Assembly: GCA_000827265.1 (NCBI GenBank)
Contig: KN834855.1
Location: forward strand, 38,561 to 66,865
Reading direction: 5' to 3'
Length of the DNA: 28,305 nt
Source of the DNA: Collybiopsis luxurians FD-317 M1
Taxonomy: Eukaryota; Basidiomycota; Agaricomycetes; Agaricales; Omphalotaceae
Shown: positions 4,003-26,026 of the stretch, piece after piece
Layout of the letters: the number at the start of each line of letters is the position of its first letter
Numbering within the stretch: position 1 is the first letter of the stretch
Made by a program: the position numbers and the translations under genes
Notes under the pieces: generated by a model
What the model was told of the DNA's origin: nothing
The model's input: the letters and a program-made list of their open reading frames with translations, nothing else
Databases searched by the model: none

Positions 4003-6955
4003 TCATTTCCTGCTGTGTATTTTGAACAGCCTAAAAATTCCCTTGAATGCTTTATGGGAAGGTTTTTTAGATGGAGCAATATCTGAGGTAGGAGTGTCAA
4101 TGTCAGCTCGGATTTCCATCAACTTTTCTATTCTGCTGATAGTATAAGGGTGCTGCTCTCCTAATGTTTGCTTAGACATCTCCACAAGTGGCTCTAAGAT
4201 CTGCAGAGCTTCTTGATGTCTTCCAACTCTAGAGTATATGCTTGCCAAGATTTGCATTGCAATGAGAGTCGAAGGATGCTGCTCTCCCAGTAAGTTCCTG
4301 CACATCTCCAATACTGACTCTTCAATTTGCAGAGCTTTCTCATTGTTTCCAATGCAAGAGAGCTCTGATGCCAAATTGCCCAGTCTAGCGAGAGTATGTG
4401 GATGTTCTTCTCCCAGTACTGTCTTTGACAGCTCTGCCAGTGGCTCTCCAATCTGCAGAGCTTCCTCAAATTTGTCCATTTCAAAGTAGATGTTTGTCAA
4501 GGCTTGCATTTTGTTGAGAGTATCAGGATGATGTTCTCCCAAAATTTCAACTGACATTTTCACCAGTGGCTCTGAAAGCTGCAGTGCTTCATTGTATCTT
4601 CCCAAACATGAATAAGACATGGCTAAGTTGGATATTCTGGTCATAGTAACACGATGTGGCTCTCCCAAGATTTGCTTTGATATGTTTACTAAAGGCTCTT
4701 CAAGGTGCCGGGCATCATTATATCTTCCTAAATGAAAGTAATCCCCGGCCAAGTTATGTATTCTTCCAAGTGTATCAGGATGTTGCTCCCCCATTATCTC
4801 CTTTGACATTTCCACCAGTGGCTCTAAAATATTTAGTGCTTCATTGTATCTTCCTATGTCACTGTAGCTAATTGCCAAGTTACCCAGATTATCTAGAGTA
4901 TCAGGATACTGCTCTCCCAAAATTTCCTTTGACACTTCCACTAGTATGCTTCTAATCTGCAGAGCCTCTAGAAACCTTCCAACTTGAGCATATCCAATTG
5001 CCAAATTGTTCAATCTGGTGAGAGTTGCGGGATGCTGCTCTCCTAATACTTTCTTGGACATCTCCACCAATGGCTTATCAATTTGTAGAGCTTCATTCCA
5101 TCTTCCCATATTGGAATATTGGTTTGACAAGGTATGCATTCCACGGAGAGTGAGTAGATCCTCCTCTCCAAATGATTCTTTTGTCATTTTCAACATTGAC
5201 TCTGCAAGCTTCATAGCTTCCTTATTTTTTCCCAGGTTGCCCAGCACTTCTATAACCCAATTCATTTGATCTAGAGTCAGACGATGCCTTTCTCCATATT
5301 TCACCTCCAGTTTATGCCACAGTGGTTCCCACAAATCATAAGCTCTGGAATAGTAGCCACATTTAAACCACAGATAGCCTATTGCCCAGTCAGTGTGGTA
5401 ATCTCCTGTAATGTCAAAATCTGTACAGTGCGGAACTAGTGACCTTAAAAATGCCATATCTGCATCATTCATGGCAATTGCTACAGTACTTTGAGCTTCT
5501 AGCTGAAAGTCTGTTTGCTTGGCACTCTCAATGCTGTCTCGAATCCAGTGATGGACTAATGGATGCAATGAATATGTCCCTCCCTTGTCAATACTAATCA
5601 GAGAATATGAGCTGATTATTTGAACAATGTTGTCCATCCAAAGTTCATCCCACTCTAATTTTTGTGATGTAAGAAATGACAAAACAGGATAGGCTGCCAA
5701 AGTCTCTACTTCTTTTTCCCATGGGAGATTATTCAATGCCCTCTGAAATAATTTTCTCGAAATCCCTTCATAGTGATAGAACGAACACAACCTCAAAAAT
5801 GTTTTACATTGTTCATCCAATTTTTCCCAGCTAAGATCCCAGGTAGCATAGACTGATAATGAATATTTTTCCATGCTTTGGGGCAGGCTCCTAGTCATCA
5901 ATGCTCGTTGATGCTGTTCCAATCTGTGTAGATATGAATCCAAACAGTTTTGCTGTGATATATAGGACCCAGCATGCACAAGAGCTAAAGCAAAGTAATG
6001 CAACTTTGCTGCAATATCAGATGCCATTGATTCTTCCTCTGGAGTTGCCTGATGGTCTTTTATAGCATGCTTCAAAAATAACAGAGTGCCATCCTTGGGT
6101 TGCATATTTTTCAACTCTTTGGACTTGGTGCTGATCTGTTTGAGGGTACCATTCCTCGAAGTTACAATGATGTTACCATGACTAGACTGAGGCAGAAACT
6201 TCCCCAAGTCAAGGTCAGGATCATCTGCATTATCATAGAGAATCATCCATTCTTCTTGATGCTGTGCCAGCCATCTAAGTCCAGCTTCCCAGTTGCTGAA
6301 GTCACCAAGCCCATTCTTGAGAGCAATATCATAGTAACATGCATTGATTGATTCTTCAGAGTGCGCAGTAATCATGTAGCACTGAGTAAATCTTCAAAGG
6401 GAGAGTGTTATTCTTCTGACATCCATTCTCATAATTTCAAACACTGCTACCTTTTTCTGAATGAATTCATGAACTTCAAAGCAGTTTGAGTTTTTCCTGC
6501 TCCTCCCATCCCATAAAGAACAAATATTTTTCTTTCATCAGCTCTCATTGAAGGAGACTCAACGCTGAAATAAGTTTCAAGCTCTGAGAGAATATCCTTT
6601 CTCCCTGTAAAAAATGGAGAGACTGGACTAAGGTCAGTCATGCCTGCAGTGAATCCTTTTAGTTTCTTTCAGTAAATAAATCCTAGCATGTTAAAGTGGA
6701 GGATGTTACCAGCTGGAGCGGTTGCAACTGCATTTTCTTTAGGTTTAGCTGCTCCATTTATGTTGACATTTCCACGGATGGTAAAGTTTGATGCTCCAGA
6801 GAAATAGTCTCCTCTGTAAGGATTTACATTAACTCCAAACTGTTACAATATCTTGTGTTGGTACTCACGAGTAGTGTGTGGCAGATGCCGGAATATTTTG
6901 TTCTGGACTGGACATATGTGCAGTCACATGTGATGCTCCAGGAAAAATAGCACCT
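4003..6955 (-). CDS. NLR-like STAND ATPase (NB-ARC/TPR), copy 1, 5' end damaged
   Basis: Fungal NLR-type signal ATPase, probably cytosolic. Such proteins oligomerise on ATP binding once the repeat domain senses a ligand; the ligand and effector here are unknown. Proposed exons: 6955-6869, 6813-6710, 6643-6451, 6391-4003; introns 55, 66 and 59 bp. Visible parts: two Gly-rich N-terminal modules (GAIFPGAS, GDYFSGASNFTI), Walker A GMGGAGKT, Walker B ILYDNADD, IIVTSRN sensor, FALALVHAGSYI helix, a winged-helix end with HPLVHHW, about ten TPR units punctuated by LGEQHPDTL-like motifs, and a basic C-terminus. The 66-bp intron would remove an in-frame TGA that is read through otherwise. The upstream exon matching copy 2 (about 7113-7014) is out of frame with these exons; the first usable ATG is at 6915, giving about 910 residues. 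It may be a functional short form or an early pseudogene. Confidence 0.85.
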
Positions 6956-7833: not shown

Positions 7834-9660
7834 TCACCTCTCACTAACCCAATCACAAGCCTTCCTAACAAACCCCGCCTCCTCCAAGTCCACGATCGTC
7901 AAAATCAGTCCAAATGTCTCGGATTCCAACAACACATCCCCTTCCTTTACCAAAACAACCATCGGCTCGACCTTCAACACTTTCTCATCCATGCGACCTC
8001 CTATGAGGATCTTTCCTCTCGTCTTGTCGAGGAGGCCTAATTGGGACATTTTAAGCTGAAACCGTAACCGAAGCCAACGCCAAAAAAAGACAAGAACGTA
8101 TAATAGGAACATATAATACATGTATAACATACACCTTTGATCCTATTAAAATGTTGCAAATTAATGATACGCGCATACAAATCTGACCCCAACGCGGCGC
8201 CTTGTTTAGCAGGGTGCATCTCCTTATACGCCTTCTTCAACCCTTCAACGTACCGCGGGAGAGCGGCAGGGCTGACGAGGGCGTAGTCGGGTGATACACA
8301 GATCTAGATAACGAGTCAAGATGTTTATTTTTTTTAGTTATTCAGTCATGGGTAAAGAGGTTTAGTCGGGGAGGGCGGAATGGAAGGAGAGGATACATGG
8401 CAGGAAGCAAAGTAAATTTTAAATATTCGGCTCCACGCTTGTAGCGCATCGTATCGTATCATGTAACATATGAGAAACGTAGGAGGTACACGCACCTGTC
8501 CACAATTCGTCACCTTCCCCCACATTGTCCACTTCGCCGCGAGCTCCAAATCGCATTTCGGATCGACGATCACGGGAGACTTGCCGCGCAACTTGAGGGT
8601 GAGAGGTGTGAGGTGTTTGGCGGCTGCGGCGGCGATCATGTGTGCGATGATTCCGTTTCTTGTGTAGAAGACTAGATAGAAAACGAAGGGATCAGTCAAT
8701 CCATTCATCTATCCATCCGAGTCATTGATAAACCAGGTTGAAGGTGTAGGAGATATGAGATATGAGGGTTCAGTCATAGACCACCCTAAACCGAACAGCG
8801 ATACATAGACAAAACAACCTTGAATGGAATGAACTCTCGAAAAAAAAACTCAAACGTCCTATGATCCCACTTCAACTCCAACACATTCGTCATCTCCGGA
8901 ACACCTCCACGCACCACCCTAATCACATCCTGGTCGAGAAATTTCGGTAGGAGTTGTTGGAGTAGTTGGACACGACTTCACTGAGTTTGAGGCATACGGC
9001 TGCGATGGCGCCTATCGTAGCTTAGATCTATGTTCCCAAGTTCTGAATATCATATAGATCATGATACACGGATGGGAATCGAAATAGCATGTATGGATGG
9101 AACGAGGGGATCATTCTTGTTTGACAAGAACGGGTAGACCACAAATACGTGGAATTAGCATCCGAGCAAAAGCAGGTTGACAAAATACGCACTAAGGACT
9201 AATAGAAAGCACTGCCCCCTTCGGCGTAGGCACCACCTTGGGCTTCAACGCCTTCCGCACCTCGGCAAATCCACATGCCCCATATAACTCTTCTCCCTCG
9301 CCCTCTTCAGCATCCTCCTCGCTGAAACAATCGTTATATCGATCATAACGTTGATTGCACCCAATGTAGCAATTGAACGCAGGTTTTCTGAAGTCGACTT
9401 GATGGCGGGGGCGAAGGACTGGCAGTTTTCTTGGAGCATGCGGGCGAGTTGGAGGAGGAAATTATGGCGGTAGGGGAGAGGGAGAGATTTTAGAGAGGTC
9501 AAGGCAGTGCGGAGGAAGGCATGAGTCTAGATATCTGGATGAGAGGGTAATTAGTTTGAAGAAGGATAGACGAAGGGGCTAGAAATTACCGTTGAAATAT
9601 CCGACAACGGTGTATCAATCGTCGGGCGAGTAGGAAAGCTTCCGAGTCGTTGTGAGCGGA
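7834..9660 (-). pseudogene. ALDH3-class aldehyde dehydrogenase pseudogene, copy B
   Basis: Best-preserved ALDH3 relic. Right to left: IDTPLSDIST (about 9630-9595), intron, FLRTALTSLKSLPLPYRHNF with LLQLARMLQEN (about 9520-9410), KALKPKVVPTPKGAVL (about 9255-9210), central exon LLPKFLDQDVIRVVRGGVPE (about 8960-8870), FYTRNG...AAAAKHLTPLTLKLRGKSP and GKVTNCGQ (8670-8497), intron, catalytic-Cys exon CVSPDYALVSPAALPRYVEG to RIKG (8308-8130), then LLDKTRGKILIGGRMDEK to ACDWVSER (8040-7840). The catalytic Cys codon is kept. Breaks: a frameshift before KALKPK, a TAG after LSISP, no ATG, ESETFGL instead of the usual EEEIFGP, and no C-terminal exons. The missing C-terminus is shared with copy C, so truncation preceded duplication. 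Confidence 0.85.
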
Positions 9661-11188: not shown

Positions 11189-14159
11189 TCATTTCCTGCT
11201 GTGTTTTTTGAACAGCCTAAAAATTCCCTTGAATGCTTTATGGGAAGATTTTTTAGATGGTGCAATATCTGAGGTAGGAGTGTCAATGTCAGCTCTGATT
11301 TTTATCAAGTCTTGTATCCTACTGAGAGTATCAGGGTGGTGCTCTCCTAATGTTTGCTTAGACATCTCCACAAGTGGCTCTAGGATCTGCAGAGCTTCTT
11401 GATGTCTTCCAACTCTAGAGTATAGGTATGCCAAGGTGTCCATTTTACAGAGAGTTGAAGGATGCTGCTCTCCCAGTAAGTTCCTGCACTTCTCCAATAC
11501 TGGCTCTTCAATTTGCAGAGCTTTCTCATTGTTTCCAATGCAAGAGAGATATAATGCCAAATTGCCCAGTCTAGTGAGAGTACCTGGGTGTTCTTCTCCT
11601 AGTACTGTCTTTGACAGCTCTGCCAGTGGCTCTCCAATCTGCAGAGCTTCCTCAAATTTGCCCATTCCAGAGTAGATGTTTGCCAAGTCTTGCATTTTGT
11701 TGAGAGTATCAGGATGGTGTTCTCCCAAAATTTCAACTGACATTTTCACCAGTGGCTCTGAAAGCTGCAGTGCTTCATTGTATCTTGCCAAATATGAATA
11801 AGACATGGCTAAGTTGGATATTCTTTGCATAGTAAGAGGGTGCTGCTCTCCCAAGATTTGCTTTGATATGTTTACTAAAGGCTCTTGAAGGTGCAGGGCA
11901 TCATTATATCTTCCTAAATCAAAGTAACTCCTGGCCAAATTCTGTATTCTTCCAAGTGTATCAGGATGTTGCTCCCCCATTATCTGCTTGGACATTTCCA
12001 GAAGCGGCACTGAAATCTGTAGTGCCTCATTATATCTTCCTATCTCTCTATAGATGACTGCCAAGTTACCCAGTCTATCTAGGGTATCAGGATGCTGCTC
12101 TCCCAAAATTTCCTTTGATACCTCCACTAGCATGCTTCTAATCTGCAGAGACTCTAGATACCTTCCAACTTGACTATATGTATGTGCTAAATTTTGCAAT
12201 CTGGTGAGAGTGTTCGGATGCTGCTCTCCTAATACTTTCTTGGACATCTCCACCAATGGCTCATCAATTTGTAGACCTTCATTCCATCTTCCCATATTCG
12301 AATATTGGTTTGACAAGGCATGCATTCCTCTGAGAGTCATTGGATCCTCCTCCCCGAATGATTCTTTTGTCATTTTCAAGAGGGACTCTGCCATCTCTAA
12401 TGCTTCTTTATTTCTTCCTAGTCTTTCCAGAGTTTTTATAACATTGATCATTTGATTTAGAGTCAGAGGGTCCATATTCCCATATATCACCTCTAGTTGA
12501 TGCCACAATGGTTCCCATACATCATAGGCTCTGGAAAAGTACCCACATTCAAACCACAAATGACCCATAGCTCTATTGGTGTGTATATCTTCTGTAATTT
12601 CAAAGTGAATGCAATGAGGAACTAGTGACCTTAAAAATGCAAAGTCTGGATTGTTTATGGCAATTGCAACAAGACTTTGAGATTCTAGCTGGAAGTCTCT
12701 TTGCTTGACACTCTCAATGCTTTCTCGAATCCATTGATGAAGCAAAGAATATGTCCCTCCCTTCTCAATACTGATCAGAGAATATGAGCTTATTGTCTCC
12801 ACAATGTTGTCCATCCAAATGTCATCCCACTCCAATTTCTGTGATGTTAAAAATGACAGAACAGGATAGGCAGCCAAACTCTTTACATCTTCTTCCCATG
12901 AGAGATTATCCAATGCCCTCTGAAATAATTTTCTTGGAATACCTTCATAGTGATAGCATGAACACAATCTCAGAAATGTTTGGCACTGTTCATCCAATTT
13001 TTTCCAACTAAGATCCCAAGTGGCATAGACTGACACAGAATAGTTGTCAATACTTTGTGGAAGACTCTTTGTCATCAATACTAGTTGATGCTGTTCCAAT
13101 CTGTGTAGATATGAATCTAAGCAATTTTGCTGTGATATATAAGAGCCAGCATGGACAAGAGCTAGGGCAAAGTAATGCAATTTTGCTGCAATGTCAGAGG
13201 CTGTCAATTTTTGCTCTGGAGTAGCCTCATGGTCTTCAATAGCATGCTTCAAAAGTAATTGTATGCCATCCTCTGGTTCCATGTCCTTTAACACCTTGGA
13301 CTTGATGCCGATCTGTTTGAGGGTACTATTCCTCGAAGTAACAATGATGTTACCATGACTAGATTGAGGCAGAAACTTCCCCAAGTCAAGGTCAGGATCA
13401 TCGGCATTATCATAGAGAATTATCCATCCTTCTTGATGCTGTGCAAGCCATCTAAGTCCAGCTTCCCAATTGCTGAACTCACCAAGTCCATTCTTGAGAG
13501 CAATATCATAGTAACTTGCCATGATGGATTCTTCAGAGTTTGCAATAATCATGTAGCATTGAGTAAACCTTCAAACAGAGAGAGTTATTCTTCAAGACAT
13601 CCATTCTCATAATTTCAAACACTGTTACCTTTTTCTGAATGTATTTATGAACTTCAAAGCTGTTTGAGTCTTCCCTGCTCCTCCCATCCCATAAAGAACA
13701 AATATTTTCTTTTCATGAGCTGAAGTCGGGAGAGACTTAACAAGAAAATAGGTTTCAAACTCAGAGAGAATGTCCTTTCTCCCTGTAAAAAATGGAGAGA
13801 CTGGAGTAAGGTCAGTCATGCCTGCAGTGAAACCTTTTTGTTTCTGTGAGTAAATAGATTCTGGTATATCAAAGTGGAAAATTCTACCAGCTGGAACAGT
13901 TGGAACTGCATTTTCTTTAGATCTCTCTGCTTCATGTATGTTGATTTGTTGAAAAGTGGAAGATGGACCAACAGTCACATATGACGCTCCAGGAAAAATA
14001 GCCCCTCTATCAGAATTTGTGTTAACTTCCAACCGAATTCACAATTTCCAGTATCATCACTGACGAATTGTGTGTAACACCCCCAGAGCTCGGACCATCT
14101 TGTTGCAGATTGGAAATGGGTGAATTAGTTTGTTGACTTCTAAGGGGGATGGAAATCAT
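11189..14159 (-). CDS. NLR-like STAND ATPase (NB-ARC/TPR), copy 2, intact
   Basis: Four exons: 14159-14065, 14006-13888, 13821-13629 and 13568-11189 (introns 58, 66 and 60 bp, all phases compatible) give a 928-residue protein with an ATG start and no stop. Parts: a Ser/Gln-rich start, Gly-rich module GAIFPGASYVTV (about 32-43), FFTGRKDIL linker, Walker A GMGGAGKT (about 116-123), Walker B ILYDNADD (about 186-193), IIVTSRN (about 210-216), FALALVHAGSYI helix (about 269-280), winged helix, TPRs about 470-905 with ten LGEQHPDTL-type linkers, and a basic tail. No transmembrane or signal peptide is seen, and no known effector domain precedes NB-ARC. Relative to copy 1 a three-residue deletion removes most of the HPLVH motif of the winged helix. 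The 3' splice site of the last intron is the AG at 13570-13569; a nearer CAG used in a naive copy-1 model is CAA here. Family role: allorecognition or innate defence; the specific role is unknown. Confidence 0.9.
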
Positions 14160-18497: not shown

Positions 18498-18569
18498 GAA
18501 CAGCCCGGACTCGACTCAACGTCCACCACCTTCATAATCTCTGGGATACTCCCACATGCCACTCGAATC
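18498..18569 (-). pseudogene. ALDH3 pseudogene copy D, central exon, left half
   Basis: The minus strand reads IRVACGSIPEIMKV, matching VIRVVRGGVPEMTNV of copy B. The exon breaks at CTCGAATC and resumes, in phase with the paralogues, at 24911 (ACATCCTGGTCGAG), beyond the 6.33-kb insertion. Confidence 0.85.
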
Positions 18570-18592
18570 GGTTTAGTCGCCGTTCATGTGGG

Positions 18593-18614
18593 TATGTTAT
18601 GTATACATAACATA
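18593..18614. repeat. Perfect 22-bp palindrome near the left transposon end
   Basis: Arms TATGTTATGTA / TACATAACATA with no loop, 24 bp inside the left border. The GTTATG/CATAAC motif recurs near the right end (24547-24607), so this is a candidate transposase-binding site. Confidence 0.6.
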
Positions 18615-18835
18615 TGTGGCAGTGCCGTTCGGGTTAAGCGGTGCAGGCAGACGGACCGCATTCTTTATCTATTTAATATCTAATCTCTGAATCACACGCG
18701 CACTGTGCATGTAAAACGACGACACAGCTACAAGCGCATTTTCCTGTGCTCTATCTCTTTCCGCTACTCTCTTTCCACTTTTTAAATTCAATTTCCTTTT
18801 TTGCGATAAGTTGATTGGATTGTGGGCAAAGGTCA

Positions 18836-21800
18836 ATGGATAATGAGCCTCCGAAACGTGCAAGGGGCCGCCCGAAAGGCTCCAAAACCAAAGAAAGACA
18901 GCCTGGCGCACCCAGACTTGGCCGTCCACCGAAAAATCAGACAAATGGTATATCTTTTGATCTCTATTGTATAATATTTACAAGTACTATAATGCTGTTA
19001 GATTTTTCAATTACGTCCTTACCTGCACAAATAAATCAAAGTGCATCTCAAAGTAACACTGTACCATCGGGTATATCTAAACTTCTGTCTGGATTTCTTT
19101 GCATGAAACTAACTCAATATCTTTAGAGGAATCAAACAGTGCATTACCAGCATTGGAAAACTCAAACTCACCCAGTCAAGAACAGGGAGGCAGCATTGAA
19201 GCCAGTTCCACTACCCAGCCTGGAACTGTGTTTGAAAATCGCAATAAAGGTAAATTGTCCTAATTTTTACTTTAATAGTTTCATTAACCACATCTGGACT
19301 GAATTAGCCTACAGCCAACATCTTGAAGAGCTCAAGAGATACCAAGATGCCGCTGCTTTGGGCAGTTCAAGTAAGGACTTTGTCTTCAATTTTTCTCTTA
19401 TTTTATTAGTTATCATTCTTTGCTGCAGAGCCTTTCTTTACATCTAAAAGCCGATGGAATTCCAGTGTTGATAATTTTCCATTGGATAATGGATATGATT
19501 CTGATGAATCTGACCATGACTCAGATGATGGAGAGTATGGAGATGGAGCAGATGTGACAGCAGTACCTTTGAATAGCTTAGGATTTGACCACTTTGGCAG
19601 TGAAGAGCAAGGTAAACCTTATAACTTTCTCCATTTCCTATTGATCAGCTTTCATTAATTTTCTTAGGATGGTTTCCAAGACCAGCTAACATGTCTCCAT
19701 GGCTTTATCAATTTTTCATTAATAAGGTAAAGCCATTGCTTTCACGGAAAACTGGTGTACACTCTGCACCCCCCCCCCCCCTTCCTATTCAGCAACGTTC
19801 TCACTCTACAGTCCTGTATCAATGTGGTTGAATTCTCCTGATGCTTTTATCAACCTACATAGCTACAGATTTGACCCACATAATCTTCAAATACCCTGTA
19901 TCTGTCTCTGGCTTCCCCATCACTTTGTTCCAGAGCTTAGATGCCCTGAATGTAGTAACAAGCTGACTGTACATGGAATACGGCCCCCTCGCCGTATCAC
20001 TGATCTGGAAGATAATTTCTGGATTACTACACAGCGCTATCTCTGTGCAAAGAATAAGGGGCAGTCCCAAACCCATAGTGGCTGTGGTCGCACTTTTATT
20101 GGATGGTCTCCTCGTCTCATTGATTCACTCCCAGCATATGTCAGACTTGCTTTTCCTTGTGTACTCTCACGGAAGAGTGGTCTCTCAAATCGGGTGATGA
20201 CACTACTGCATGTCGCAAATCAGCACAAGATGGGTCCTACAGGTGCTCGTGCTTTATTGCTTGAGGCCCATACAAAACGATTCAATACATGCCAGCTCAT
20301 GTATCTTGAAGCTATATTTGAGCGGGAACAAGGAGCAGAGTGTAATGATGTTGTTGGAAATCAACCAACTTTATATTATTTCCGTTCAGCAGAGAAAATG
20401 GCTGAGTTTGGTAGCTTTGATGATATCAATGGCTATGGTGGCTTTGTGCCTTCTTGCTCATACCTTATTACAATGCTTAACCGTGACATTGAGCGGGATG
20501 AGGTGTCAGCAAACCAGCACACTGCATTGCTTCCCTTTAAGACTGGGCATGTTGATGACTCACACAAGGTTTTTCAATTTCCATTCATAGCCTGTGATAC
20601 AGAACAGTAATTAGTTGTTATATCTTAGATTGTAAAGTGTCTTTCTAATGGTTCTGGAGTTCATACCTTTAATGGTCTCTGGACTCTGATGAGTGGTTGG
20701 TTTATACGGAAGCAGGTTCTAACTTTTACCAAGTCTCATCTTGAGCGCCAAGGACCAATGCATTCACTTGCAGACTCACTGAGTCTATATGGCTATGCAG
20801 AGCCTCAACTTTGGTTCTCAGATGTCCCAGATAAGGTTTGTTCAAGATGTCATAGTGTCTGTATTGTTGCCTGTTGATTGTGCTTGGCAGGACAAGAGCC
20901 TAATTGAAGATGCATTTCCTAAAATAGCAGAGGGATTGCATCCAATGGCTGAGGCTCAAGGACTCAAATCCCTCACAATACCTGAGGATTTTCAAATCCA
21001 GGTTGTTGATAATCCAAGTATTGTTAACACAATTCTCTGCCCCAAATTGATTGAGCTTCATGACAATGCTACTTCATCTCTCCATTATCATTTTGATGCA
21101 GAATGGAATCGGTCCTGCTCTCTTGGGGTTTCAGTAATTGTTCTGCTAGAGCATGAAAATAATCAAGTATACATCTTCAGAGTATGATTTTTTATTACTG
21201 CTTCATGATTTCAAATGTCTGATATTAAATATCTTACTTATATCAATATGCTGAGCTACCTGAAAGTCTTGCCCGTCTTCTTCTTCATCCTCAAGTTTTC
21301 TTTATTGGGTCAAATATTGCAAGTGATTTTGGGCGGCTCAAGCGGCAGTTCTCTACTCTTGCCAACCATCAATTCAGAAACCTTATCAATCTCAAATCAT
21401 TGGCAAAAGATCGAGGGCTCATCCTTTGGGATGAATCTGGTGCACTTGCATACCTGATGAAAAAGCTTCTCAGTATTCATTTACCAAAAGAGGACTATAG
21501 CCGCATCTGTGAGCGCTGGGAACTACCTTTTCTTGAGGATGACTTGCGCCAGTATGCTGCACATGATGTGTATGCTTCACAATGCCTATATCAACATATA
21601 TCTGCTACTTGTCCTCCACTACAAGTTGACACTTCCTGTGCACCAGGAACCAAGGTAGCCATTCACATTAATGAAGGAGGTCCCATTGCAGCCATTGGTC
21701 AAATTTCTAATAGCCAGTCTGGGAAGATACATGGGGTAGCAATCAAAACTCCAGCTCAGACCCGTTTAGCTGTTGATATTGAGACAGTTATTCTTCCAGA

Positions 21801-24305
21801 TGCATGTTCACTTCTGCATTTTCCTGATTCAGCTCCACCTTCTAGGGTAAAAACAGGAACTCGAGGTCTCACCCTTCGTCAGTTAAGGGGTGAACATGCA
21901 GATGCAAATGGTATTTTTCAAATTGTTGCCCATGTCAAGCAAGTAACCTTCTATAACAATGAGGTCAGTTGGCATTTTAAAGTCTTATATGTGTTATCTT
22001 GAGCTACTATTGCTTTGTAGTTGGTTCTTCCTTCACCAGCCCACAGTATTGCCTGGGAACCTTCAGCCTTAATACCAGAACAAAATCAGCAGAGTGGCAG
22101 TGATGGTGATGAGGATGAGTTAACAGAGGAAGTTCCTGCCCTTCTAGAAAATAACCTTGATAATGATTCCAATGCAAACTCTGTGGCCCAATTGATGGGT
22201 GATCATGCAAAGGGTGAGTAAAACAATGTTACTGGAATGCTCCATTCAAACTATTTATGTAGCACAAACTGCATCCAATTGCCCAGATCCTTCTGATCCA
22301 CAAACAATAAAGCCTTTCCTCACTGAACTTGCAAGACTCATAGAGTCAGCACCATCTCTTTCTGAAAGTGAACTCTACACTCGCATCAAAAAGGATCTCT
22401 TCCATGCCTTTCATATGATTGAGGTCCCAGCTAATCATGGTCTGAAATCCACCTTCTCTCGCATAATGCGCGACCACATTCTGTCTTGGGATCCAGTCAT
22501 ATGTGAAAGGATTGACAAAGTATGCAGGGAGAAACTGTCAACTACTTTTGAGGGTATGCTTGCAAGAAATCCAAAGTGGATTCAAAGACGTTGTCCTCGA
22601 TATGTTCCACCACCATCAGTACTTGTTACTGTATTGCAATATGTTTTCCAAGTATTTGGACATGCAAAAGATGCAAAAACAGGTGTGCCATTGTTCAATG
22701 AACGAGCATGGCAAAAGGCAAATGCTGTTCTTGACCTGGCACGTAATGGCTACCTTTCTGATTCTCGAGAAATTGGTTTATATGAGCCCTCTGGCTCTGA
22801 TCAATATGGGCTGGAGCTATTCGGGTGTATTTGGGGATCTGGAACTGTGAGGCAGTGCATAGTGGATTTTATGGTCATCTTCCATCAAAGCATTGTAAGC
22901 TCTACATTCCTAATGTTAGAAGCAGTTAATTAAAATCACATAACAGGTACACCCCGGTTTGTAGTTAATTGGATGACTGATGCTCGAACTTGGCATAATT
23001 TGCAAGCAAGTAACTCTTTCTTCAGCTTCCTATCAACCTAACTTTAGTCTTTTATACTAGGCATATGCAAAACATCAGTTTGGCTCTAACTAGGAATATC
23101 ATCATTCAATTTCAATGATAAACCGGACTCACATTCTTCTCAATTATCTGGATGGGATAGTTGATGGGGCCCAGTCTTACTCTAACTGGCTCAACTGTGA
23201 TCTTTTTGCCCCAACAAAAGAAATATTTAGTATATCTATCTTTCCAGGTTAGTGTATGGTTAAAATTTTGTTCTGCTTGTTCCAATATTCAAATAATAAA
23301 CAGAGCTACTACAAGTTCATCTCAAAATGGAACCCTTTGATGAGATGACATCTCCCCGAGGATTACATGCTAATGATGATTGGCTTCGCTGACGGCAGGG
23401 ACTTGCACTTCCAGTAATTCCTCCCTCAACTTCTCAGGTGCGAAAATATTTCTTTGAAAAGCTGCCAAAGTATGCCTTGCAAGCCAGCCAGGAAGGCAAG
23501 AGCAGAATAGACTGGACAAAATTTGCTCAAGACTGGAACTCTGAAGCTGATGGCACCTTCCACTTCTATGTTACTGTTGAGATTCTTGAGGCATATGCAA
23601 AGAATTGGGACAAAATTACCAATCAGCATGCATCCCAGGAGCTCATCACTGAGCATTTGACTATTCTTAAGCAAACAAGTCAAATTTTTAGTGGGCCCAA
23701 TCAGGATTTTCCAGCCCAGATCACCTCTGCAAGCTTCCCACTGATTGTTCAACCAAGTCGAGGTGAAATTGAAATTGACCTTGGCCCCCAAATTGATGAT
23801 AGCCAGAGGGTGCCTCAAAGTCTTTCAACTTCCCTTTCAGTTTCTCAGCCAAATTTAGCTCAAACATTTTTGGCAGAGGGATCTTCTTCCAGGTAAGCTT
23901 TTATTCAGCCTTAATACCAATTTATATATATATACACTTATGTGATTGCTTCAGAAATACTGAACAGAATGGTGCCGACTCTCACCTGCATTCTGCAGAA
24001 AATGAAGTTGATGATAGTGGGTGAGTAGTAAATTTTCTGCTCAAATGGGGATTTGCCACTGATTAATACTTTATTCCTGAACTAGGCGACCACTTAAACG
24101 GGCACGCACCTCAACAAAAAAACCCAAGTCCTGCCGACGATGTAAAAGTGAGAAGTGCAAGGGAAGCGGTGATCTCTCGTTGTGTCCTGAACCTTGTATC
24201 ACTCCATGCAAGCATTGTGGCAGCCTCGATATTCAAGTATGCAAGGGTGTGGATAAGGGGCGCAGATGTACTAACAATATTCAATCTTCTGGTTCAGTGC
24301 CTTGA
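18836..24305 (+). pseudogene. AT-hook / DUF6729 zinc-ribbon / DDE-like / DEDDy exonuclease transposase gene
   Basis: Exons: 18836-18947, 19002-19070, 19127-19249, 19308-19370, 19429-19611, 19668-20568, 20629-20835, 20891-21181, 21256-21963, 22021-22213, 22263-22894, 22947-23005, 23061-23247, 23304-23892, 23955-24020, 24086-24305. Order: AT-hooks (ARGRPKG, RLGRPPK); disordered then acidic linker; zinc ribbon CPEC...CGRTF (19942-20095) typical of DUF6729; VDDSHK and LWFSDVPDK (20821), read as the first two DDE acids; 3'-5' exonuclease with DAEW (21095), ASDF (21325) and YAAHD (21553-21567); helical region; GT..EAVHSGFYGHL, possible third acid (22849); basic stretch and Cys-rich knuckle CRRCKSEKCKG...CKHCG. 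Breaks: a 13-C run (19769-19781) one base out of phase, frame loss near 22845, TAG at 23091, TGA at 23390. Intact length would be roughly 1250 residues. The 23006 intron needs a GC donor. This copy is probably inactive. Confidence 0.8.
19769..19781. repeat. 13-C homopolymer at a reading-frame junction
   Basis: Upstream exons up to QFFINK (phase-consistent through six exons) and the downstream zinc-ribbon frame beginning at about 19783 differ by one base across this run. No GT-AG intron around it gives an open product. The true length may be misread, or it may be a natural slippage mutation. Confidence 0.8.
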
Positions 24306-24902
24306 CTAGGTTTGATGTATTATTTCGCTGACTCAGTATTGCCAAATTTACATGAAAATTGGTAATTAGCTGCTCCGGGGAATAAAAATAATATGTATTT
24401 ACTTTTTACGCCTTAACGATAAAGCCTTGAGGCTATGAAAGACCTGCCAGCAGCAACATCACAACTTCGGCAAGTTTCAATCAATAAGCGCCTGCACCTG
24501 TGTTCATGTGATTCAGCAAGTTACGTGTCAATGTCTCATGACTGCACATAACATGAACATAACAAGCGCCGAAAATGTTTGAGCGCCGATGTTATGTCCA
24601 TGTTATGATAAATGATTTTCTACAGTGCCATTGAAAAGAGTACATAACAGTTCCTTTGGTAGTTAGTGTATTATATCTATCCTAAATCTGCCTGCTTTTT
24701 TCTGAAAGGTGTAGGCAAGGGATTAACTCTCGCAACCAGAAACTTGCATCGAAGGTTTTATTTCGCTACTGCACCCGTGCTCTCGGCCATCGGCCATAAT
24801 TAATTTCAGAAATGTATTGAAATTCTCTCTCTCTCGGATTTTATTTTATTTTATTTCAGGCAAAATCCCCGCTTCCTTACCCACACGAATGAAATCAAAA
24901 CC
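24306..24902. other. Non-coding right end of the 6.33-kb transposon
   Basis: About 600 bp after the stop codon with no open gene. It contains the inverted repeat at 24547-24607, another ACATAACA near 24642, a CT/TTTTA-rich tract (about 24824-24858) and the right terminal repeat ending in AAACC at 24902. Confidence 0.7.
24547..24607. repeat. Subterminal inverted repeat with CATAAC motifs
   Basis: 18-bp arms (24547-24564 and 24590-24607) with one mismatch, each made of two CATAACA-like units, around a 25-nt loop that holds GCGCCGA twice. Same core motif as the left-end palindrome. Likely cis-acting DNA of the transposon. Confidence 0.65.
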
Positions 24903-25343
24903 CTCGAATCACATCCTGGTCGAGATATCTTAACAAGAGTTGTTGGAGGCGCCCAGCATAGTTGGATGTGACTTCGCTGAGCTTGAGGTAAACAGTCCAC
25001 TCGGCTGCAATGGCGTCTATTGTCACTTGGATGTGTGTAAGTAGGTGCCCAAGGTTTGGGTAATCATGATTGAGTATTAGGTATTGATAGGGAATGGAAT
25101 GGATCTTGGAATGTACAGATAGAATGAGGGGGTAGTTCCTATTCAACAAAATCAGTTAGACCCAATCTAAACAAGGTTGACGGAACCCCTCCAAAATAAA
25201 CACCAAGCATCACCCCCTTCGATGTAGGCACCACCTTGAGCTTCCAAGCCTTCTCCGCCTCCGGCAAATCCAGATGCCCTGTATAACTCTTCTCCCTCGC
25301 CCACTACCCTCTCAGCTGAAATAATTGCGCTATCGATCACAGG
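24903..25343 (-). pseudogene. ALDH3 pseudogene copy D, N-terminal and central parts
   Basis: The minus strand shows REKSYTGHLDLPEAEKAWKL and KVVPTSKG (about 25310-25205), then the central exon AAEWTVYLKLSEVTSNYAGR and LLRYLDQDVIR (about 25010-24903). It continues at 18569 across the transposon. Its N-terminal end is cut at about 25343, where the inverted-repeat element begins. An intron of about 100 bp separates the two blocks. It is a relic because of truncation and the insertion. Confidence 0.8.
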
Positions 25344-26026
25344 TCAAGGGGGTCCGAAAAAAAAAAAAATTTATATACCGGGGGTCCGAAAATTATTTTC
25401 GGGCCTCCGCTGCGAACCTACCTACCACCACGTGATATTTGCGGTCACGTGTAATTCAAAGAAGGAAATTGATTATGCTAATTAAATACCGCACAACTCT
25501 TTTACCCAAGTACTACACCCCCAATTGAGTCTTGTAAAGCCCTCAACTGACTCCAAAGTTTTAATATCAAGTATGATACTGTGGACCAAAATACAAATTA
25601 GAAAATGATATTCCACAGTCATAATGCCAATAACTACCTGTATCGTCAACGTAACCCAGCCTGTGCCCTTGCCAATTCATTTGATGTAGTTCAGGCATAA
25701 CACCTTGCTACCTGTATCAATGGTCAGATTCTAAAGAGGTAAGTTAGCAAGTATTCATGAATAAGCAAAACTCCTTACCACTGGTAAGGAGTTACCAGAT
25801 TGCTATTACTTTCAGACATCTTTACAAGAAGAAAGTGATAAACAATCAAAAAGGAGTGAGCAATTGAGAATTCAGATTCAAGTGGCATGCAGATCATGTC
25901 GGCATTGAGTTCGGCACTGCTATTTGAGGGTCCTCAATATGTCAGTCAAAAAATATTTTTCAGGCCTCATCGCCCAACCTACCTACCTACCCTTGGTCCG
26001 AGATTTCCCGGCCTGGACCCCCTTGA
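25344..26026. mobile_element. MITE-like element with 12-bp terminal inverted repeats
   Basis: TCAAGGGGGTCC at 25344-25355 is exactly inverted at 26015-26026. Inside, related blocks also occur in direct orientation (about 25390-25427 and 25950-25987, both ending CAACCTACC/GAACCTACCTACC-like), and CCGAAAATTATTTTCGG (25386-25402) forms a hairpin. No target duplication is found: the left flank is ALDH3 sequence and the right flank is not, so one side has been rearranged or deleted. No protein gene inside. Class unassigned. Confidence 0.45.

Follow-up and report, generated by a model that had tools for sequence, protein, structure and literature searches.

Relation to described transposons

Among described transposons, those nearest in architecture to the element reported here are the Dada elements, the transposases of which are of the DDE type with a DxxH motif; a DEDDy exonuclease between the second catalytic Asp (D2) and DxxH was reported in 2013 for Laccaria and Ectocarpus only (PMC3706591), and Kojima and Jurka proposed that it processes 3' ends (PMC3706591). 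Dada elements with definable ends make 6-7-bp target duplications, lack terminal inverted repeats (TIRs) and lie mostly in snRNA, tRNA and 5S genes (PMC3706591, PMC8869645), and a survey of fish found duplications of 6-7 bp with mostly RNA-gene targets retained (PMC8869645). We analysed a stretch of 28,305 nucleotides of Collybiopsis luxurians FD-317 M1 (assembly GCA_000827265.1, contig KN834855.1, positions 38,561 to 66,865 of the forward strand; "the window"), in which a 6,333-bp insert interrupts an exon. The insert is a TIR DNA transposon with an 8-bp target duplication, defined borders and full-length relatives elsewhere in the assembly, and its multi-exon gene, with conserved catalytic residues in its family, likely encodes a DDE transposase that serves the element itself and is related to those of Dada, rather than cargo.

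Borders of the element and its target

The insert is flanked on both sides by an exact copy of CTCGAATC (Table 1), and its 28 left terminal bases agree at 19 of 28 positions with the reverse complement of the 28 right ones. Both borders were also located without use of the duplication: homology to other copies begins exactly at 18570 in three of the five left-end matches (C25, C61, C119) and ends at most one base from 24902 in five of the nine right-end matches. Three of these five (C107:150.5k, C148 and C166; L023, L024, L025) are not independent, as they have a common outer flank (TACTTGCTACC...), and were therefore copied within a larger repeat rather than inserted three times. An exact 8-bp repeat together with an 18-of-26 inverted repeat was not found in any of 200 mononucleotide shuffles (20 for each of 10 loci), and two fixed 8-mers are identical by chance with a theoretical frequency of 1.5e-5, the count for random pairs in the window being 8 in 200,000 (about 4e-5).

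When the insert and one copy of the repeat are removed, the rejoined flanks align to an uninterrupted paralogue at 8872-9033 with no gap at the junction and read in frame (YLDQDVIRVACGSIPEIMKVV against FLDQDVIRVVRGGVPEMTNVL in the paralogue). Both the target exon and the paralogue are ALDH3-like. The preliminary description, which read the insert as a whole transposon from its exact 8-bp duplication and from a paralogue standing in for the empty site, is thus borne out on both counts.

Copies elsewhere in the assembly

The assembly searched comprises 64.26 Mb in 200 contigs. Relatives of the window protein occur at 20 other places (matches within a few kb being merged), and the DUF6729 profile matches at 12 places including the window, 11 of them over the cut-off. 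The surroundings were examined for ten gene copies, four of which are bounded by TIRs and exact 8-bp duplications: the window copy, C9:306664-312271 (5,608 bp, CTAATGCA), C55:156256-162353 (6,098 bp, ATCTTTGC) and C7:501790-508702 (6,913 bp, GAAATGGT). Their TIRs match at 18, 18, 21 and 22 of 26 positions. The flanks of a further copy, C27, agree at 7 of 8 positions, and C33 repeats C9 over its full length, with 97.4% identity between identical borders. At C11:903208-908964 (L065, L053) the flanks GAAATACA and GAAACGTG show four differences, all transitions, and could be a decayed duplication.

In a quick, midpoint-rooted tree with long branches, the bounded elements fall into three lineages: the window copy with Mycena, Psilocybe and other proteins; C9, C33, C55, C11 and C59; and C7 and C27 with Tricholoma and Lyophyllum proteins. 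The most distant of the three is about 26-37% identical by piece. If the TIRs and 8-bp duplications are shared by descent, these traits would be older than the splits between the three lineages. That the gene belongs to a TIR element making 8-bp duplications, as first proposed for the window alone, accordingly holds for four of the ten gene copies and in all three lineages.

Gene-less copies were collected by searching for the ends of C9, C7 and C55, and the borders of seven were fixed before their flanks were compared. The comparison was restricted to copies whose two ends lie on the same contig in the same orientation; places with a single end were left aside (e.g., C79, C174, C18, C45, C163, C8, C1, C158, C108). 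The left border was placed by extrapolation over 12 bases in C44, 14 in C139 and 9 in C57, and for C16 and C82 the left flanks had been seen earlier and the right ones had not, so that these two comparisons are half-blind. An exact 8-bp duplication was present in three of the seven: C29:350106-351514 (GATGTTTG), C16:634768-636150 (GATACTTA) and C57:238051-244778 (GAGTTTGC), the last a 6.7-kb copy with the family's ends and no gene match. The flanks of C82 agree at 6 of 8 positions and those of C94, C44 and C139 at 3 or 4 of 8. Exact duplications are therefore found in seven elements altogether, four with the gene and three without.

The ends of the window element itself recur at four places (left) and nine places on eight contigs (right). 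The preliminary description had expected such a search to yield full-length copies with the same termini, different 8-bp repeats and the same gene; the same borders do recur, but no place with the window's ends outside the window carries a match to the window gene, and an exact duplication is absent from C25 and C52, the two copies seen at both ends. Nested in one window-family copy is a separate 2,341-bp element (L024:4098-6438, on G000:C148; ends GGCTCACGTCC, 24 of 28 inverted) with an exact 8-bp duplication, AACATCGG, and no match to the transposase proteins compared.

The several copies lacking an exact duplication would suit a host gene of the usual kind whose surrounding segment was shifted by recombination, with accidental 8-bp repeats. 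This explanation is hardly credible, being already contradicted by the seven exact duplications, three of them at borders set by homology beforehand, and by the reading frame restored at the junction.

The gene and its predicted catalytic core

The nearest database protein comes from the same strain (99% identity, 88% query coverage). In a Pfam scan of the gene as seven exon pieces, which did not cover the C-terminal part in full, two domains exceeded the Pfam cut-offs, DUF6729 (E 1.2e-12) and DNA_pol_A_exo1 (E 4.9e-8), and a Cys-rich tail (CRRC...CKGSG...C) follows, in agreement with the domains given in the preliminary description. Our gene model is only approximate, since splice sites were picked by eye, exons 1-5 as joined contain three stops and give no single open frame, and an AG acceptor is missing at the 21247 joint. 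The four nearly invariant Cys of DUF6729 (C45, C48, C79 and C92 in exon numbering) form a pattern that would bind Zn. The tail of the window copy has the form CxxCxxxxC; the His of a CCHC motif was not placed.

Homologues were compared in three alignments (A1, 18 of 40; A2, 56 of 78; A4, 46 of 81 together with one exon from the window), from which short, partial and overlong models were excluded, as was P0001, the model of the window gene in the database. Among 56 homologues, counting gap-free rows, the first Asp (D1) is conserved in 50 of 50, D2 in 53 of 53 and the Glu in 52 of 52, while in DxxH the Asp is found in 49 of 51 and the His in 51 of 51. The exonuclease lies between D2 and DxxH. 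The order of motifs is unchanged in two distant homologues from ENA and JGI, P0077 (1,733 aa) and P0076 (1,136 aa), the former with several AT-hook-like motifs. The fold predicted for a Mycena protein aligns with the ISCth4 transposase (6xgx), of the IS256 family, with Mutator kin; ISCth4 is not known to have an exonuclease insert or DUF6729, and a PDB search gave no sequence match to it at E up to 1.

The exonuclease residues are themselves nearly invariant, and their domain is also RNase-H-like in fold, so one may ask whether the DEDDy domain is the transposase active site and D-D-E merely structural. We consider this quite improbable, as D-D-E is at least equally conserved, the closest folds and sequences of the domain are the WRN, EXD2 and Nibbler exonucleases, and among Dada transposases the exonuclease is reported just for Laccaria and Ectocarpus (PMC3706591).

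The preliminary description regarded the gene as cargo. Such a gene would be a captured exonuclease gene in a non-autonomous hAT or KDZ/Zisupton element, moved in trans by another transposase that makes 8-bp duplications, a length usual for hAT and Zisupton (PMC12730594). The genome does have 19 hAT dimerisation-domain matches among those listed, and the other places with the window's ends are gene-less; none of the 19, however, falls inside the coordinates of a bounded element, and a Pfam scan of 18 homologues, run with HMMER filters on and admitting matches of E up to 10, gave no KDZ or hAT family, the hAT dimerisation domain included. The gene family moreover resides within TIR elements of three lineages as distant as noted above, and its D-D-E triad, DxxH and predicted fold, which aligns with a transposase, point to a transposase. 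Cargo is therefore an unlikely reading, if less so than an active site in the DEDDy domain.

Several observations weigh against the gene being the element's transposase. The window copy retains D1, D2, DxxH and the exonuclease residues and has Arg at the position of the catalytic Glu and an in-frame TGA at 23390-23392, so that by itself it is probably no longer active, and it is the only copy of its subfamily with the gene. The flanks of C33 do not match, those of C11 agree at only 4 of 8 positions in spite of paired ends, and C3, C29:211500-219500 and C59 have no end pair in the 7.5-8 kb examined for each. The fold is that of one Mycena protein model, and the proximity of D-D-E within it is predicted. 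No transposase is among the 50 matches listed by Foldseek; in a second structure comparison ISCth4 is row 40 of the 50 listed, below exonucleases, and is known by its first and last aligned residues, which do not resolve the share on each side of the exonuclease. The Pfam MULE domain matched one of 18 homologues, at E 0.15. Kinship with Dada is drawn from the published architecture of its transposases.

If the gene is the transposase, binding to the inverted repeats would fall to the AT-hooks and the DUF6729 zinc domain, and D-D-E, united in one RNase-H fold, would excise the element and join it to a target cut with an 8-bp stagger. Trimming of 3' ends exposed in the reaction, the role put forward by Kojima and Jurka, would be the task of the WRN-like DEDDy exonuclease that lies between D2 and DxxH. 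A protein of this kind would also mobilise the gene-less copies that have the same ends.

Classification

The window element and Dada of Laccaria bicolor and Ectocarpus share a multi-exon gene for a DDE transposase of similar size (Dada-U6_DR, 1,402 aa), a DEDDy exonuclease between D2 and DxxH, a D1-D2 distance of 69 here and 68 in Dada, an N-terminal four-Cys motif, a C-terminal Cys motif and internally deleted derivatives (PMC3706591). An exonuclease within a Dada transposase having been reported already in 2013 (PMC3706591), the window does not provide the first physical link between such a gene and a transposon. The Cys spacing of DUF6729 is unlike the N-terminal CCCC of Dada-U6_DR, and the elements here depart from Dada by having TIRs of about 25-28 bp and 8-bp duplications, one of them in an ALDH3-like exon.

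A search of 98,739 bases, made up of the window and 12 loci, gave no Rfam family over its gathering score. It took in the flanking DNA of five elements (window, C9, C33, C55, C7) as well as gene-less places at six loci; that of C27, C11, C16, C29 and the copy at 238-245 kb on C57 lay outside it. No tRNA was found in the window. Because of the TIRs, the 8-bp duplications and the lack of an Rfam family at the loci searched, we do not class the elements as canonical Dada. By transposase architecture they are the exonuclease-bearing Dada branch or its sister.

KolobokD is likewise a DDE transposon with a 3'-5' exonuclease, but Kolobok duplications are 4-bp TTAA and its exonuclease is DEDDh, not DEDDy (PMC9587614). 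Duplications of 8 bp are also made by Dileera, Zisupton and most hAT elements, which have other transposases, while Kyakuja makes 7 bp and has no TIR (PMC12730594).

More tentatively, and with rather more doubt than confidence, we suggest a separate superfamily of cut-and-paste mushroom transposons near Dada, with true TIRs, 8-bp duplications and no RNA-gene target, in which the reaction depends on trimming of the transposon or target ends by the exonuclease in the split core, and to which many fungal proteins annotated as "DUF6729" or "3'-5' exonuclease" belong as transposases.

DUF6729, a Pfam family of unknown function, gains a predicted job, as do fungal genes named 3'-5' or Werner-like exonucleases in databases; a transposase role likely explains the fungal "DUF6729" protein family. 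Ends and target duplications are now fixed for an exonuclease-bearing, Dada-like lineage, and both the role of the exonuclease inside a DDE core and the reason why some relatives are tied to RNA genes and these are not become testable. In the open-licence PMC literature, as excerpted (Repbase, subscription papers and supplements being outside its scope), we found nothing that already ascribes TIRs or 8-bp duplications to this lineage, and DUF6729 is not named in the part searched.

Table 1. Features of the element, its gene and its target, in window coordinates
Feature	Position	Strand	Basis
Left target-site duplication CTCGAATC	18562..18569	.	exact repeat in sequence
Right target-site duplication CTCGAATC	24903..24910	.	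exact repeat in sequence
Transposon, 6,333 bp	18570..24902	+	duplication, homology borders, inverted ends
Left terminal inverted repeat	18570..18597	+	19/28 vs right one; C25, C61, C119 start at same base
Right terminal inverted repeat	24875..24902	-	C52, C57, C107, C148, C166 end within one base
Predicted first coding exon, with two GRP motifs resembling AT-hooks	18836..18947	+	splice sites by eye
Exon: DUF6729, then D1 of predicted DDE triad (codon 20554-20556, VDDSHK)	19809..20568	+	Pfam, alignments, model; 5' edge approximate
Exon with D2 of predicted triad (codon 20821-20823, FSDVP)	20629..20835	+	alignments
Exon with first exonuclease motif DxE (FDAEW, D codon at 21095)	20891..21181	+	alignments
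Exon: remaining DEDDy exonuclease (SDFGRL; YAAHD 21553-21567)	21247..21963	+	Pfam DNA_pol_A_exo1, alignments; 5' edge approximate
Exon with DxxH (DLFH, 22394-22405) and catalytic Glu site, here Arg (22849-22851)	22287..22894	+	alignments
In-frame TGA, C-terminal part (WLR*RQG)	23390..23392	+	sequence/translation
Cys-rich C-terminal tail (CRRC...CKGSG...C)	24090..24305	+	sequence, alignment
Interrupted ALDH3-like exon, one side	18516..18569	-	junction alignment
Interrupted ALDH3-like exon, other side	24911..25038	-	junction alignment
Uninterrupted paralogue, stand-in for empty site	8872..9033	-	junction alignment

Other features of the window

Beside the same ALDH3-like fragment, a 681-bp stretch (25345-26025) with inverted ends CAAGGGGGTCC and GGACCCCCTTG is perhaps another short element. 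The window also contains two open frames with many TPR repeats, at 4003-6375 (-; 790 aa) and 11189-13552 (-; 787 aa), the former with a weak NB-ARC match under the Pfam cut-off.
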